From an uncultured Selenomonadaceae bacterium (GTDB taxonomy: Bacteria > Bacillota > Negativicutes > Selenomonadales > Selenomonadaceae): a stretch of 64,000 bases of DNA. The notes beneath the pieces are model-generated. The model was not told where the DNA came from. It searched no databases and worked only from the letters and a program-made list of their open reading frames with translations. Below are positions 44,523 to 54,874 of this stretch, one piece after another. Within the stretch, counting starts at the first letter, position 1; each line of letters begins with the position of its first letter. The translations under genes and the position numbers were made by a program. Location: the NCBI GenBank assembly GCA_902778455.1, contig CACYXR010000008.1, positions 1 through 64,000 of the forward strand, read 5' to 3'.

Positions 44523-44636
44523 ATTTCGTTATTATCGCGTTTTACCGAAAGCAAAATCGACTGATTTGGCCGGATGCGCTGCAAGAAAGGTTGAGCGGTG
44601 CTTCTACTTGTGTACGGAAACAGAGGAGGAAGCAGT

Positions 44637-44993
44637 ATGACAAACTTTGAGACGCGTTTGGTTCGTTACATGGACGCAGGCTTTCCTCTGATTTACGTGG
44701 ACACCTTCGAAGAAGGGAAAGCTATGTCCATCATCCGAAAGGTATTCCGGGGGCGAGGACTGCTGGAGTGGAACGGCCGCGGATTCTTCGACCATCAGAG
44801 CCATGCATCGATGATTGGCCAAGGGCTGGCCGATACGTTGGAACTTTTATTGAGCGACGAGAGCAACCTTGCACGAAAAGTGCTGGTTCTTCTTGGCGCT
44901 CATTTTTTCTTGGACGATCCGGCCGTTGTCGAACGCCTAAAGCAAGTTTCGCAGAAAAAGAAAAAGTTCTGCTGTAATTTATTTGGCCATTAG
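44637..44993 (+). pseudogene. Truncated AAA-family ATPase, N-terminal part only
   Basis: The 118 residues match the N-terminal domain of long AAA ATPases of the ycf46/FtsH-like type: TRLVRYMDAGFPLIYVDTFEE, then LLGAHFFLDDPAVVERLKQ. The frame ends shortly after, in a Lys-rich tail from an A-rich stretch, before any Walker A or B motif. The ATPase core (expected at least 250 further residues) is absent downstream. It is either a deletion remnant or a frameshift in the A run near 44958-44966. Confidence 0.7.
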
Positions 44994-46250: not shown

Positions 46251-46336
46251 GACTTCCATGTTAGTGCTTTATTTCTTTAAACTTTAACTAGTATTTCATA
46301 CATATGCTGTTATCATCTGTTAGGGGGTGGATACAA

Positions 46337-47155
46337 ATGTTTTGTCATATTTGTGGAACCGAATTAAAAGATAATACTAAATTTTGCACAAATTGCGGAA
46401 CAAAAATTGAAGAAGATGAGATAGAAATTGAAGAAAATAAACTAGATTCCCGTACGAAGTTGTCTTTGCCGGAGCGAGAGATGGCTGTAGATACTGGGCA
46501 CATGGACGAGAAAGAACGAAAGAAGCAATCGGAAGAGTTTTATCAAAAAGGTGATGAAGTATTCGAGCAGGGAGACTATAAAGAAGCTTTTCAATGGTTT
46601 CGGAGGGCTGCTGATTTGGGGAATGCTGTCGCTATGGAGGCAGTAGGCTGTTCATATCTTATGGGATTCGGGTCAGAGCATAACATTCAAGAAGGATTTA
46701 TATGGCTCAAAAAAGCTGCTGATTTGGGAAATGATAATGCAATGCTGACAATTGGAAGATTGTATGAACGGGGTACTCTGACGGATGGAAAACCCTATTA
46801 TCGAGCAGCAATAGATTGGTATTTACAAGCAGCATGTATGGGTAATGCACAGGCGATGTATCATGTCGGACAAATGTGTGAGAAAGGGCAATCTGTTGAA
46901 AAAGATGATGAAACAGCTGTTGTGTGGTACAAAAGAGCTGCAGAGTTTGGGAATGCTGAAGCAATTCAGGAATTGAAAAAAAGAGAAAATAAAAATGATA
47001 ATTCAGTTCTTTCCAATTCCTCAAATCCGCTTCCAGATAGTTCATCGAATCAAGCTCACGTTAGTCATTCCGAGCAAGATGATTCTAGAAATGGGGTCGG
47101 TTGTTTAATTATTATTATAATGCTGCTTGGATGGTTCTTGTCTATATTCCTATGA
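46337..47155 (+). CDS. Zinc-ribbon, Sel1-repeat, tail-anchored protein
   Basis: The 272-residue product has an N-terminal double CxxC zinc ribbon (MFCHICGTELKDNTKFCTNC). An acidic linker follows, then four to five Sel1-like repeats (about 70-220; EAFQWFRRAADLGNAVAMEAVG, AAIDWYLQAACMGNAQAMYHVG, TAVVWYKRAAEFGNAEAI). A Ser/Asn-rich spacer leads to a C-terminal TM (IIIIMLLGWFLSIFL) that ends the protein. Sel1 repeats are protein-binding scaffolds; the topology suggests a cytoplasmic adaptor anchored in the membrane. GGGGGTGG supports ATG 46337. Its zinc ribbon is nearly the same as that of the next gene. Confidence 0.85.
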   Translation: MFCHICGTELKDNTKFCTNCGTKIEEDEIEIEENKLDSRTKLSLPEREMAVDTGHMDEKERKKQSEEFYQKGDEVFEQGDYKEAFQWFRRAADLGNAVAMEAVGCSYLMGFGSEHNIQEGFIWLKKAADLGNDNAMLTIGRLYERGTLTDGKPYYRAAIDWYLQAACMGNAQAMYHVGQMCEKGQSVEKDDETAVVWYKRAAEFGNAEAIQELKKRENKNDNSVLSNSSNPLPDSSSNQAHVSHSEQDDSRNGVGCLIIIIMLLGWFLSIFL

Positions 47156-47258
47156 GAGATTATGAAATCGCATGAAAAGAGGATACAATCAGTGTTTTTT
47201 TTGAAGGGGAATTTTTTGCTAATTGTTTTGAGAATAAATAACAAGGAGAGTGAGAAAA

Positions 47259-50200
47259 ATGTTTTGTCATATGTGTGGTGCAAAATTAAAAGATAATGCA
47301 AAATTTTGTTCTAAATGTGGGACTAAAATTGAAGATGATGATTTCGTGTTAGAAGAGGATGAGAATGAGAATTTTTCTTCTGTATTACCATCAAAATTAA
47401 AAGAATTACGATTTGAAATCCAACGATTAGAAGATAAAAAGCAAGCGGCCGAAAGAAAAAATGACAATTTAGGCATGGCAATTGTAGCGGTGAAAATAGA
47501 AAAATTACAAGACGATATTGCACGCTTGGAAAACATGATGTCTCTTTCACCCGTAGAACAGTGTTTGGAAATTTTACGGTTAGAGAAAGAGCACACAGAA
47601 GAGGAATTGGAGGGGCTGTATTCAAGCGAGCAACGTACGGAAAAATCAAGGAAAGAATATGAAGATAACGGTAATAGTAGGATGGCAAAAGTCGAAGAGG
47701 GGGAACTAAACGAGATTCGTTCAGAAATTAAGAACTTGGAGTCAATAATAAAGAGAATATGTTCAGAGATTAAAGGAATAGAGGAAAACTCGGAGTTTCC
47801 GTTGTCATTTAAAAATCAGGAGAGGCAAATTGGGAAGCCGTATTTGAATAAAGAGTGCATAGATGAGAAAGGGGATCCTCATGCGAATTTATCACAACAA
47901 GAAACATCAATAAGAGCTGGGTATTCAGAAGAAGGAACCGGTGAAAGGCAATCAGAAGATACAGATGAATTTAATGTGCGGATTGGCGATTGTCAAATAA
48001 CCTACCCCGCGAACGTAAAGACGTATGTATCTGTTATGATGATGTTGGAGGAATCCACAAAAGAGTCCAAACAAACATTTGATAGCTATTATCGCGAAGC
48101 TGGAGCCGTTACCTCTTCTTTGTATGACAAGGGAATGAAATGCCTTGATATTGTAATAGAGTCCATTCTGAGATTTATGGGAACGCTTGGAGTGTATGAG
48201 ATTCAAAAGGAGCAGCTTCTCACTGCGGATGATTATGGACAAAGTGCATTGGAAATATGGCAAAACTATTGTGGAGGTGTATTTCAGAAGATTGATTTGA
48301 TTACAAGTGAGGCGCAAAATGAGCGTGACGCACGGGAATATCGTAAAGAAACACGCTTTCGTGTGGTCGGCGGTGGATTCGGGTTGAAAGGTGCTGCAAA
48401 AGGTATGTTGGAAGCAGCTGCCATTAACGCGGTCACAGGAGCCGCGCATGGCGTTTTCAATATGTTTGGAAATGCATCTACGGACAACTGGGAACGCAAG
48501 AGCAAGCAAGAACTGTATGAGGATCCACGTACTATCAATACACTTCAATATGGACTTGCTTTAGCAGGTGAACTTCTCAAGAAAGAAGCATTGTACATGG
48601 TTGGGGTTCGCCCTTTTCCTATCAATGCTGCTGAACGCGCCAATGTTATTCTAGACAATATAAAAAATAATCGTGTAGATCGAGAGCATTTGCAAGATGC
48701 ATTCATGAAAGTCTTTCGTTTAAATCCATTTTCGCAGGAAGCGTATATCCATTATTTAATGACCTTCGGAGATGCTGATGGGAGCTTGCAAGAATATGCT
48801 GAGAATTTCAATTTGGGTAATATCGTCAGCTATATGAAAAATGTTGCGTTCCGAGAGGCAATAAAAATTGAGTTTCATCTTGACCGTGAATCGGATGATT
48901 ACGATATAATTGCCGGTCTCACTGGCATAGTTAGTGGTAATATTTTAAGTGCTATTGATGGGGAGACTGAAGTTATATCATTGTATATTGACAAAGATGT
49001 AGAGACGATAGAAAGGGATCTTAAAATAATCAAGAAGTGGCAAGACCGTTATGCCTCCGAGATTGGACGCAGTATTTTAGAAGATATGAATAAGGTTTTG
49101 CAACGTGTAAGAGACGGTAGTCAGAATCAAAGAATCATTGCCACTGAGAATGAAGACTATGTTATTGGTGAATATTCGCATGCTTTACAAAAAAATATAC
49201 AGAGCTTAAATTTCTCAAGTACATTGCGTGAAATATCACGTGGCGCATTTAACAAATGCAGTTTTGGCAATGAAGGTGCCCCGCCTTTGTCTATCAGAAT
49301 GCCAGATACTTTGAAGACAATTGGCGAAGAAGCTTTTGCGGAGTGCGAAAACCTTGGAGAAGTTATTCTGAATGAAGGATTGGAATATATTGGGAATAGA
49401 GCCTTTTGGGGCTGTGAGGGCCTAAAATACTTGCGCATTCCAGATAGCGTAACCTATTTAGGAGACAATATAGGGGGAGCTACGGGACCTAAATTGGATC
49501 TGGATGCTGACAGTCCTGCTGCTGCTATGATTCGTGAACGTGCGAAAGATGGAAGAAACCCGTGGGGGTATACGGGTGTCTTGTCATTTAATTGGGACAG
49601 TGAAGATATTCAAATTCCTAAAGAGTATACGGCAATCGAGCAAGGACTATTCCAAGGGACACGTGCTAAGAAACTAATCTTGCATTCTGGGATTAGAGAA
49701 ATATCTAAAGGTTGCTTTACGGATTCCCAACTGGAAAAAATTGAGTTTGCCGAAGGTTTGCAGAGAATTGGTGTTGAGGCGTTCGCATCAAGTTATAATT
49801 TAAGAGAGGTTATTATTCCCTCGACGGTCAAAGAAATTGCTGAGAGCGCATTTGCTTTTTGTAGCCATCTTGAACGGATTGAACTGCCGGAAGGCCTAGA
49901 AAAATTGGGTGACAACGCATTAAACACTCTTCGATGGGAGCGTAACTTTGTTGAAGAATGTGCTTTAAAGGCTGTTCTCTTTCCGGAAAGTCTGATTGAA
50001 ATAGGCAAAAACGTGGTTGCTAAAGATTATACGACAATCGTTTGTGCCGGAGGGAGTTTTGCGTGGTTTTATGCTCAGGAATACGGATATAAGTTCGAGG
50101 AAGTTTTTTCAAATGCGCGGATACATTTCAACCAATATTTGGCGAAGTACAATGATATTTTGGGCGCAGAACCCAATGCTCATATCGTCAGAGTATCGGA

Positions 50201-50744
50201 ATTGCTTTATGAGGGTAATCCTGTGTCGAATGTATTCTTTTTTGTGCAATCCCAAAGATTGCAAGCAAATTCTTTTGACCCGAACGACCAATGGGCATTG
50301 ATGGCGTTAAACAAGATTCAATACGCGATTACGTCTTATGCTGCAAGTGCCACTGATGAAGAAATCCCATTGTTCGTTTACGAGCCGCCTGCAGTCGAAA
50401 CTGAATCGGCATACAGAATTTTTATTACAAATCAATTTGTTTATATAGAGCAGACAGGTAAAAATACAATAAAAATAAAAAATGATATAGTTTGCGGTCA
50501 TGGCATCCAATATTATTCAAACGGAATTGCCCAAGTCGAAAATAAGCTTGGTATTCAGATCAAATATCATGATTATGCGCATGGAAACGATGTACAAAAA
50601 GTTTTCGTGGTGGTCGAAGGACCGGCAATTCAAATAGCAATAACCATAATAAATCTTACGTTGAAAATATTTTATAAGACGGAAGCACAACATTCGCCGA
50701 GCGGCTGGATTACGGTGGGCTCTTTCCGCGCAACGTATAGATGA
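47259..50744 (+). CDS. Giant zinc-ribbon, coiled-coil, leucine-rich-repeat protein
   Basis: The 1161-residue product begins with the zinc ribbon MFCHMCGAKLKDNAKFCSKC. Coiled coils (about 45-175), a central helical domain with a Gly/Ala-rich stretch (about 370-410, GGGFGLKGAAKGMLEAAAINA) and a helical region to about 620 follow. BspA-type (LRR_5) leucine-rich repeats span about 640-900 (IGEEAFAECENLGEVILNEG, IGVEAFASSYNLREVIIPST, IAESAFAFCSHLERIELPEG). A C-terminal globular domain completes it. No signal peptide is present, unlike surface BspA proteins, so it is probably cytoplasmic. The function is unknown; the repeats suggest protein recognition. It is AT-rich and shares its N-terminal module with the 46337 product. 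Confidence 0.85.
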   Translation: MFCHMCGAKLKDNAKFCSKCGTKIEDDDFVLEEDENENFSSVLPSKLKELRFEIQRLEDKKQAAERKNDNLGMAIVAVKIEKLQDDIARLENMMSLSPVEQCLEILRLEKEHTEEELEGLYSSEQRTEKSRKEYEDNGNSRMAKVEEGELNEIRSEIKNLESIIKRICSEIKGIEENSEFPLSFKNQERQIGKPYLNKECIDEKGDPHANLSQQETSIRAGYSEEGTGERQSEDTDEFNVRIGDCQITYPANVKTYVSVMMMLEESTKESKQTFDSYYREAGAVTSSLYDKGMKCLDIVIESILRFMGTLGVYEIQKEQLLTADDYGQSALEIWQNYCGGVFQKIDLITSEAQNERDAREYRKETRFRVVGGGFGLKGAAKGMLEAAAINAVTGAAHGVFNMFGNASTDNWERKSKQELYEDPRTINTLQYGLALAGELLKKEALYMVGVRPFPINAAERANVILDNIKNNRVDREHLQDAFMKVFRLNPFSQEAYIHYLMTFGDADGSLQEYAENFNLGNIVSYMKNVAFREAIKIEFHLDRESDDYDIIAGLTGIVSGNILSAIDGETEVISLYIDKDVETIERDLKIIKKWQDRYASEIGRSILEDMNKVLQRVRDGSQNQRIIATENEDYVIGEYSHALQKNIQSLNFSSTLREISRGAFNKCSFGNEGAPPLSIRMPDTLKTIGEEAFAECENLGEVILNEGLEYIGNRAFWGCEGLKYLRIPDSVTYLGDNIGGATGPKLDLDADSPAAAMIRERAKDGRNPWGYTGVLSFNWDSEDIQIPKEYTAIEQGLFQGTRAKKLILHSGIREISKGCFTDSQLEKIEFAEGLQRIGVEAFASSYNLREVIIPSTVKEIAESAFAFCSHLERIELPEGLEKLGDNALNTLRWERNFVEECALKAVLFPESLIEIGKNVVAKDYTTIVCAGGSFAWFYAQEYGYKFEEVFSNARIHFNQYLAKYNDILGAEPNAHIVRVSELLYEGNPVSNVFFFVQSQRLQANSFDPNDQWALMALNKIQYAITSYAASATDEEIPLFVYEPPAVETESAYRIFITNQFVYIEQTGKNTIKIKNDIVCGHGIQYYSNGIAQVENKLGIQIKYHDYAHGNDVQKVFVVVEGPAIQIAITIINLTLKIFYKTEAQHSPSGWITVGSFRATYR

Positions 50745-52880: not shown

Positions 52881-53486
52881 ATGTCAATGCGAAGATTTAA
52901 TTCTAATTATGAAGACGTTGAGAGGAATCCAAAGGCGGAACTTTTTGCGTTCAAAGAAGCAGCGAGTGCCGGAAATACGGATGCAATGATGGCGCTCGGG
53001 GAAATCTACAGTGATGACTATTACGCTTACCTGATGTCTGAACCGGATATACCTGCCGCTATTGCGTGGTACAAAAAAGCGGCGGACAGCGGAGTAGCAG
53101 ATGCGATGATGGCATTGGGCGAAATAGCCGAGAGGGAGGAATCTCCAGAAGCGGTTTCCTGGTATGAAAAGGCATTTACAGCAGGAGCCAATCGTGCTGC
53201 TGGCGCCCTGATGAAGCATTTTTATTGGGACAAGAATTATGAAAAGGTATATGAATGGATACAAAAAGGGCAATCGCTGAACGCGGAACATCCTTATGCA
53301 CAATATTTCCTTGGATTACTTTATATGGAGGGAAAAGGGTCTGTTTCGCAGGATAATGAAAAAGCGAGAATTTGCTTGAAAAAGGCGGCCGAAGTGGACA
53401 TCCTTGCGGCGATGTTCGTTTTAGGGGATATATATCGAGACGGCGTAGGAATCGAAGCGAGCCGCGAAAAAGCATTGGAATGGTAG
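52881..53486 (+). CDS. Sel1-repeat protein ending at an amber codon
   Basis: The 201 residues form about five Sel1-like repeats (ELFAFKEAASAGNTDAMMAL, AAIAWYKKAADSGVADAMMA, EAVSWYEKAFTAGANRAAGA, KARICLKKAAEVDILAAMFV). The frame stops at TAG (53484-53486) in the middle of the next repeat, in SREKALEW-stop-QKVKNKADV. Other repeats have Tyr after the Trp (WYKK, WYEK), so TAG most likely replaced a Tyr codon. The same frame then continues into an acyl carrier protein domain. GAGGAGG supports ATG 52881. Confidence 0.85.
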   Translation: MSMRRFNSNYEDVERNPKAELFAFKEAASAGNTDAMMALGEIYSDDYYAYLMSEPDIPAAIAWYKKAADSGVADAMMALGEIAEREESPEAVSWYEKAFTAGANRAAGALMKHFYWDKNYEKVYEWIQKGQSLNAEHPYAQYFLGLLYMEGKGSVSQDNEKARICLKKAAEVDILAAMFVLGDIYRDGVGIEASREKALEW

Positions 53487-53492
53487 CAAAAG

Positions 53493-53930
53493 GTGAAAAA
53501 CAAGGCAGACGTTTTTGAGGCAAGCATTGCCTATTGGAAACTCAAAGAACCGGAAGAAAACACTTGGATTTTTGAGGTTTTGCGCGACGTGCTTGTGAGC
53601 AAGTTGGACGTCGACGCGAAAGATATTCAGAGAGAAAGCAGATTTGTTGCAGATTTGGGTATGGATTCGCTGGATATTGTAGAATCTATCATGGCAATTG
53701 AAGAAACCTTTGGGACAGAGATATTTGACGAAGAAGTGGAGGCAATGTCAACCGTGCAGGATTTGGTTGACACACTGGTGCGTAAGAATCAGCACGGGGA
53801 ATGCACGATTGAAGATGGCGATGAGGAACGACAGTACATAAATCTTTGCTCGACGCCGAGAAAAACATATCTTAAGGGCATGTGGTTAGAAATCGCTGAC
53901 TCCTTATACGAAACAACGATTGATTCCTGA
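53493..53930 (+). CDS. Acyl carrier protein domain, in frame after the amber codon
   Basis: The 145 residues after GTG 53493 open with the end of a Sel1 repeat. A complete ACP domain follows (about 25-95) with DLGMDSLDIVE, whose Ser59 is the phosphopantetheine site, and IEETFGTEIFDEE. A 45-residue tail of unknown function closes it. The GTG has only a weak AAAAGG upstream and lies in the same frame as 52881-53486, so the ancestral product was probably one protein of about 349 residues. Separate translation of the ACP part is possible but less likely. Confidence 0.8.
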   Translation: MKNKADVFEASIAYWKLKEPEENTWIFEVLRDVLVSKLDVDAKDIQRESRFVADLGMDSLDIVESIMAIEETFGTEIFDEEVEAMSTVQDLVDTLVRKNQHGECTIEDGDEERQYINLCSTPRKTYLKGMWLEIADSLYETTIDS

Positions 53931-54157: not shown

Positions 54158-54874
54158 ATGGGAAAGAAAAAGCGTAACATCATTGGCACAGATGAAGTCG
54201 TAAAGAAATGCGAGGCACTGAAACCGATTGTATATGATGAAGAGCTGTCGGCTTTTGATCTAAACGGCGATAGCGACACGTTTGAAACCAAGCTTGTGCT
54301 TGATGATTATGATTGGATGCACTATGTCCTCACTGCGCATCTTCCGACGAAAGCATACGGAAACATGGAAATTCAATTTGAATATGACGGGGCTATTTTT
54401 TCAATTATGGCCGTAAAAGTACGAAACGAAGTCTACGTCCTTAAATTCAACACCGACATTTTTCAGGAGCATATCATCAAGTTTCTTCAAAAGCAAATTC
54501 AAGCTTGGGGAGACACCCGTGCCTTCGATGGAACGGAGGAAGCAGTAAATTTCTATAATGCCGTTCTTGCAGCTTCTGATACGCATCTTTTTCCTGAAAG
54601 GGAGTTCAACAGGGCTTATTACGAGGAACGGATTGATACGAAAGGAGTTTATATCAAGAAAAGCAGCCTGTTCTCTGATATGAGCGATGAATCCCTGAAA
54701 GCATCCCTGCATGATTTCGATGCCTTTTACGAGAATGCGATATTTCCCAATGGCGGAGAACTTGAACAGTTGCGGGGCAAATACAAGGAAATGTATGGGA
54801 GTCATGGCATCATAATGATGAAAAAAGACTTGCTCCGTGAATGCTCGAAGCGGTGGAACGAAGCAACGGAATAA
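54158..54874 (+). CDS. Hypothetical protein, 238 aa
   Basis: A soluble acidic protein without TM. The central part is beta-rich (MEIQFEYDGAIFSIMAVKVR, NEVYVLKFNTDIFQEHIIKF) and the C-terminal half is helical. I recognise no family. AAAGGATAGGG supports the ATG. About 227 bp of hairpin-rich noncoding DNA precede it (including a GCGGATGC/GCATACCGC pair near 54040). It is followed by the first copy of a 26-nt hairpin also found at 55442. Confidence 0.7.
   Translation: MGKKKRNIIGTDEVVKKCEALKPIVYDEELSAFDLNGDSDTFETKLVLDDYDWMHYVLTAHLPTKAYGNMEIQFEYDGAIFSIMAVKVRNEVYVLKFNTDIFQEHIIKFLQKQIQAWGDTRAFDGTEEAVNFYNAVLAASDTHLFPEREFNRAYYEERIDTKGVYIKKSSLFSDMSDESLKASLHDFDAFYENAIFPNGGELEQLRGKYKEMYGSHGIIMMKKDLLRECSKRWNEATE

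Follow-up and report, generated by a model that had tools for sequence, protein, structure and literature searches.

To understand why a Sel1-repeat gene and an acyl carrier protein (ACP) gene stand in one reading frame with little more than a stop codon between them, we analysed positions 52881–53930 (plus strand) of a 64,000-nucleotide stretch (hereafter the window) of contig C8 from an uncultured Selenomonadaceae genome. Read as one, the frame runs through 201 Sel1 residues ending in ...KALEW, a TAG, the two sense codons CAA AAG and a possible GTG start into the ACP, which ends at TGA 53928–53930 (Table 1); the layout given in the preliminary description, two genes in one frame divided by only TAG 53484 and two sense codons, was thus borne out. 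A shared frame is weak evidence alone, because it would arise by chance in 1 of 3 cases, and stronger evidence comes from a homologous pair in a related genome (G008) and from the Sel1 domain, which ends earlier than is usual. The explanation that we favour, at about even confidence, is that an ancestral Sel1–ACP fusion was interrupted separately in the window genome and in G008, on islands that are losing genes. The earlier interpretation, a fusion protein split by an amber codon, is supported in part.

Table 1. Features of the split Sel1–ACP frame (positions in the window)
Feature	Position	Strand	Remarks
Sel1-repeat ORF, 201 aa	52881–53486	+	TAG stop within last repeat; SD GGAGG upstream, −11.3 kcal/mol
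TAG breaking the frame	53484–53486	+	Cognate suppressor tRNA absent, RF1 present
Linker, in frame 3′ of the stop	53487–53567	+	Alignable to the G008 linker
ACP ORF, 145 aa if begun at the earliest candidate start codon (GTG); coordinates include the stop codon	53493–53930	+	SD not above background, −5.3 kcal/mol
ACP core domain with DSL phosphopantetheine site	53568–53789	+	PF00550 at ORF residues 29–95; TIGR00517
C-terminal extension	53790–53927	+	Weakly conserved with G008 (YL...YE) by alignment

Pfam analysis identified Sel1 (PF08238) in the first ORF (2.9e-20, 72.4 bits against a cut-off of 30.7) and PP-binding (PF00550) in the second (3.3e-12, 46.9 bits; cut-off 20.8), and NCBIfam likewise assigned the latter to the acyl carrier proteins (TIGR00517, 74.4 bits with a cut-off of 70.45). 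The DSL serine for phosphopantetheine is present by sequence in both the window copy (DLGMDSLDIVE) and that of G008 (DVGFDSLDAVE). With its DSL motif and full domain the window ACP resembles AcpP, being 51% identical to the FAS AcpP of its own genome and up to 57% identical to the AcpP of relatives. It is an extra ACP, because that separate canonical acpP lies on contig C30, adjoining fabD-, fabG- and fabK-like ORFs (named from sequence). Unlike FAS II AcpP, however, the window ACP stands outside a fab (fatty-acid synthesis) operon, and it differs further from AcpP in having Sel1 repeats and a linker in front of it, in carrying a C-terminal extension of ~46 residues and in having no ribosome site. 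A match to an ACP of Fusobacterium vincentii (NZ_CP084075.1, 501899–502174) reached into this extension (40.9% over query 32–141). An AlphaFold2 model of the read-through protein was too poor for use (mean pLDDT 50.9, and <50 over the entire ACP).

The Sel1 half resembles other PF08238 proteins, which occur widely in related genomes and in islands, in having several repeats above the cut-off, but differs from them in that it stops within its last repeat and an ACP then follows. Using a local Sel1 profile made from 85 repeats, we counted the residues that follow profile position 25 (Trp) in 25 Sel1 proteins. The last repeat of the window protein is incomplete, ending at position 25 of 33, so that 0 residues follow the Trp position, compared with 3 in G008 and a tail of at least 13 in 22 of the 23 other proteins; the remaining one (L061) has 4 and itself looks frameshifted. 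Since many of these proteins are related, the comparison is a description and not an independent test. In support of the earlier interpretation, the TAG lies within the last repeat, earlier than the end of nearly all other Sel1 proteins examined, and the abrupt ends of both ORFs, 0 and 3 residues past the Trp, would argue for a broken fusion. The further suggestion that the stop replaces a Tyr found after Trp in every other repeat holds for AWYKK and SWYEK but not for EWIQK. Readthrough raised the score of the last window repeat from 25.1 to 28.0 bits, a gain matched by 20 of 300 shuffles; the −1 continuation in G008 brought no gain, 85 of 300 shuffles doing equally well. These scores are suggestive for the window and uninformative for G008; that the gain is small and not decisive counts against a broken fusion.

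Relatives of the unit were sought in 189 genomes of the family, 380 of the class and 398 of the phylum (overlapping sets), which yielded a single further Sel1 and ACP tandem, that of G008, from another genus of the same family. A profile of the window and G008 copies detected no third tandem in the 380 class and 398 phylum genomes. For the read-through protein, no full-length match outside the window was among the matches listed for the 189 family genomes. In relatives, the ACP searches hit ordinary AcpP-like genes, and Sel1 was absent from all ACP loci examined apart from those of the window and G008. Searches of genome contigs, viral contigs, phages and plasmids gave no further Sel1–ACP units, and a word search of the literature found no description of such a fusion. 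Intact homologues, which had been expected to carry Tyr at the stop site, were not found in the genomes searched; since no intact fusion turned up in the family, class or phylum sets, the ancestral gene is one that we infer.

The G008 tandem (contig C5, locus L052), traced via neighbourhood genes, consists of a Sel1 ORF (36.7% identical over 139 residues) followed on the same strand by an ACP (49% over 53 residues). It is like the window locus in gene order, in being split at nearly the same junction and in lying on an island with related neighbours, and unlike it in three respects, namely that the split is a frame offset, that the ACP has insertions between helices I and II, and that the Sel1 gene has no SD. 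The G008 Sel1 ORF ends GAA TGG GTT AAA AAA TAG and the ACP goes on in the −1 frame; the break is thus 3 codons beyond that of the window, and the lesion is of a different kind (frame offset compared with in-frame TAG). A full-length alignment of the two copies gives 35% identity, linker and C-terminal tail included. Such homology, spanning Sel1, linker, ACP and tail over both breakpoints, would be expected of a broken fusion. A sequencing or assembly error at 53484–53486 in an intact fused gene, for which a change of one codon would suffice, is made less attractive by this second genome, since it is differently interrupted at the same junction; with the sole homologue interrupted too and an assembly of good quality (34 contigs, 100% complete), we regard such an error as very improbable.

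Translation signals were assessed by anti-SD pairing, which was −11.3 kcal/mol at the Sel1 start, clear gene starts giving about −7 to −11. At the putative ACP starts it was −5.3 kcal/mol (GTG 53493) and −4.0 kcal/mol (TTG of G008), compared with a random-site median of −3.1, 10% of sites reaching −6.6 or better. Some mechanically picked starts (e.g. 46304 and 52380) also score poorly, because the true start is probably further in. No credible ribosome site or ATG precedes the ACP in the window or in G008, and this lack of an SD above background in both genomes favours a broken fusion. It also bears on the possibility that the locus holds two genes on one transcript, with the ACP translated by coupling or reinitiation and the shared frame of the window due to chance (1 in 3). 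Consistent with two genes, the ACP is conserved in both genomes, a start codon follows closely behind each stop (GTG 53493 at 6 nt in the window, TTG at about 21 nt in G008), and the sole homologue is likewise two ORFs, in different frames. However, neither ACP has an SD above background or an ATG, both Sel1 ORFs end abnormally early, and the linker around and upstream of the putative ACP starts can be aligned between the genomes, if weakly. The preliminary description had named two-gene homologues with a ribosome site before the ACP as the contrary case; the one homologue has the two ORFs but not the ribosome site. Taken together, we consider two separate genes unlikely.

Among the 51 tRNAs of the genome, all decoded, none has an amber anticodon or is otherwise cognate to UAG (a test that covers cognate tRNAs, near-cognate readthrough being outside it), and RF1 is present; both observations favour a broken fusion, and the suppressor tRNA that had been suggested was rejected. 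Folding 3′ of the junction was ordinary (z −0.95 and −0.42), revealing no RNA structure that might stimulate recoding, so that the readthrough option of the preliminary description gained no support from RF1, tRNAs or structure. Recoding would mean that some ribosomes read through the TAG in the window, or slip −1 on the A run ahead of the stop in G008, to give both Sel1 and Sel1–ACP. What keeps this reading alive is the near coincidence of the breakpoints: two independent lesions no more than 3 codons apart in diverged copies would be unlikely under random decay, at about 7/298 = 0.02, a figure that deserves little weight because it comes from one pair only and the alignment is weak near the junction. 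Moreover, in both genomes the downstream frame continues unbroken to its end and retains the DSL site, which would speak against decay, and the G008 frames overlap exactly at AAA AAA TAG. That site does not conform to the canonical X_XXY_YYZ heptamer, however, the G008 Sel1 start looks damaged, and a different mechanism would be required in each genome, in addition to the missing suppressor tRNA, the presence of RF1 and the unremarkable RNA structure. We therefore hold recoding to be quite unlikely.

In-frame stops under purifying selection have been reported as frequent in bacteria, which lends recoding some plausibility, although the authors assume that most are transient and involve no functional recoding (PMC7918605). 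The window TAG is like these in being in-frame in a gene otherwise open and conserved, and unlike them in that its homologue lacks an orthologous stop at that very codon; a test for a conserved stop has this single homologue, with a different lesion 3 codons away. In retroviruses, readthrough (MuLV) and frameshifting (other retroviruses) occur at the same gene boundary, and related elements may thus use either at one place (PMC5009743). The locus might encode an island-borne Sel1–ACP scaffold in which a small fraction of the protein acquires the ACP via one fixed junction, by stop readthrough in one lineage and by −1 slippage before the stop in the other, an idea that we likewise rate as quite unlikely.

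The surroundings show signs of gene loss. Window positions 44598–44993 encode a 131-residue relic corresponding to residues 272–401 of an 830-residue Cdc48-type AAA+ ATPase present intact in G008 (L052:16082–18574); this points to gene loss from the window island and, together with the G008 Sel1 gene, in which an SD is absent before every in-frame start, it supports decay. Relatives of the genes at 44598, 50924 and 54158 are common to both islands. The product of 54158–54874 has no Pfam match; several related genomes carry two or three members of its family in tandem. Encoded at 46304–50744 are two neighbouring zinc-ribbon proteins, of which one contains Sel1 repeats and the other (1164 aa) BspA-type leucine-rich repeats. 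The G008 island carries a dynamin-like pair (L052:6797–10706), scored by PADLOC as LeoBC and LeoA, with an FtsZ-like gene adjoining (L052:4689–5714). On contig C8, 8.7 kb past the window, there is a tRNA-Ala (CGC) gene (72716–72788, minus strand), a possible attachment site of the island, and near it a 543-residue ORF (70989–72620) whose start is serine-recombinase-like.

On the favoured explanation of a broken ancestral fusion, the locus would have originated as one Sel1-repeat/acyl-carrier-protein gene on a mobile or variable chromosomal island, its product, judging from the domains, bearing a phosphopantetheine-bound acyl (or peptidyl) group on a solenoid scaffold. In the window, the TAG would end translation in the last repeat, so that a slightly truncated, strongly initiated Sel1 protein is made and the ACP very little or not at all, whether by inefficient reinitiation at GTG 53493 or by infrequent misreading; the G008 copy would have been separately interrupted, 3 codons further on, by the frame offset. 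If the split is decay, this is an ordinary broken island gene, the main value of which is that it reveals a rare Sel1–ACP architecture and its one relative. If it is recoded instead, a single junction maintained by two distinct recoding mechanisms would be out of the ordinary. Outside fatty-acid or polyketide synthesis, a Sel1 scaffold with an attached ACP would suggest that genomic islands use a carried acyl or peptidyl group in a way as yet undescribed.
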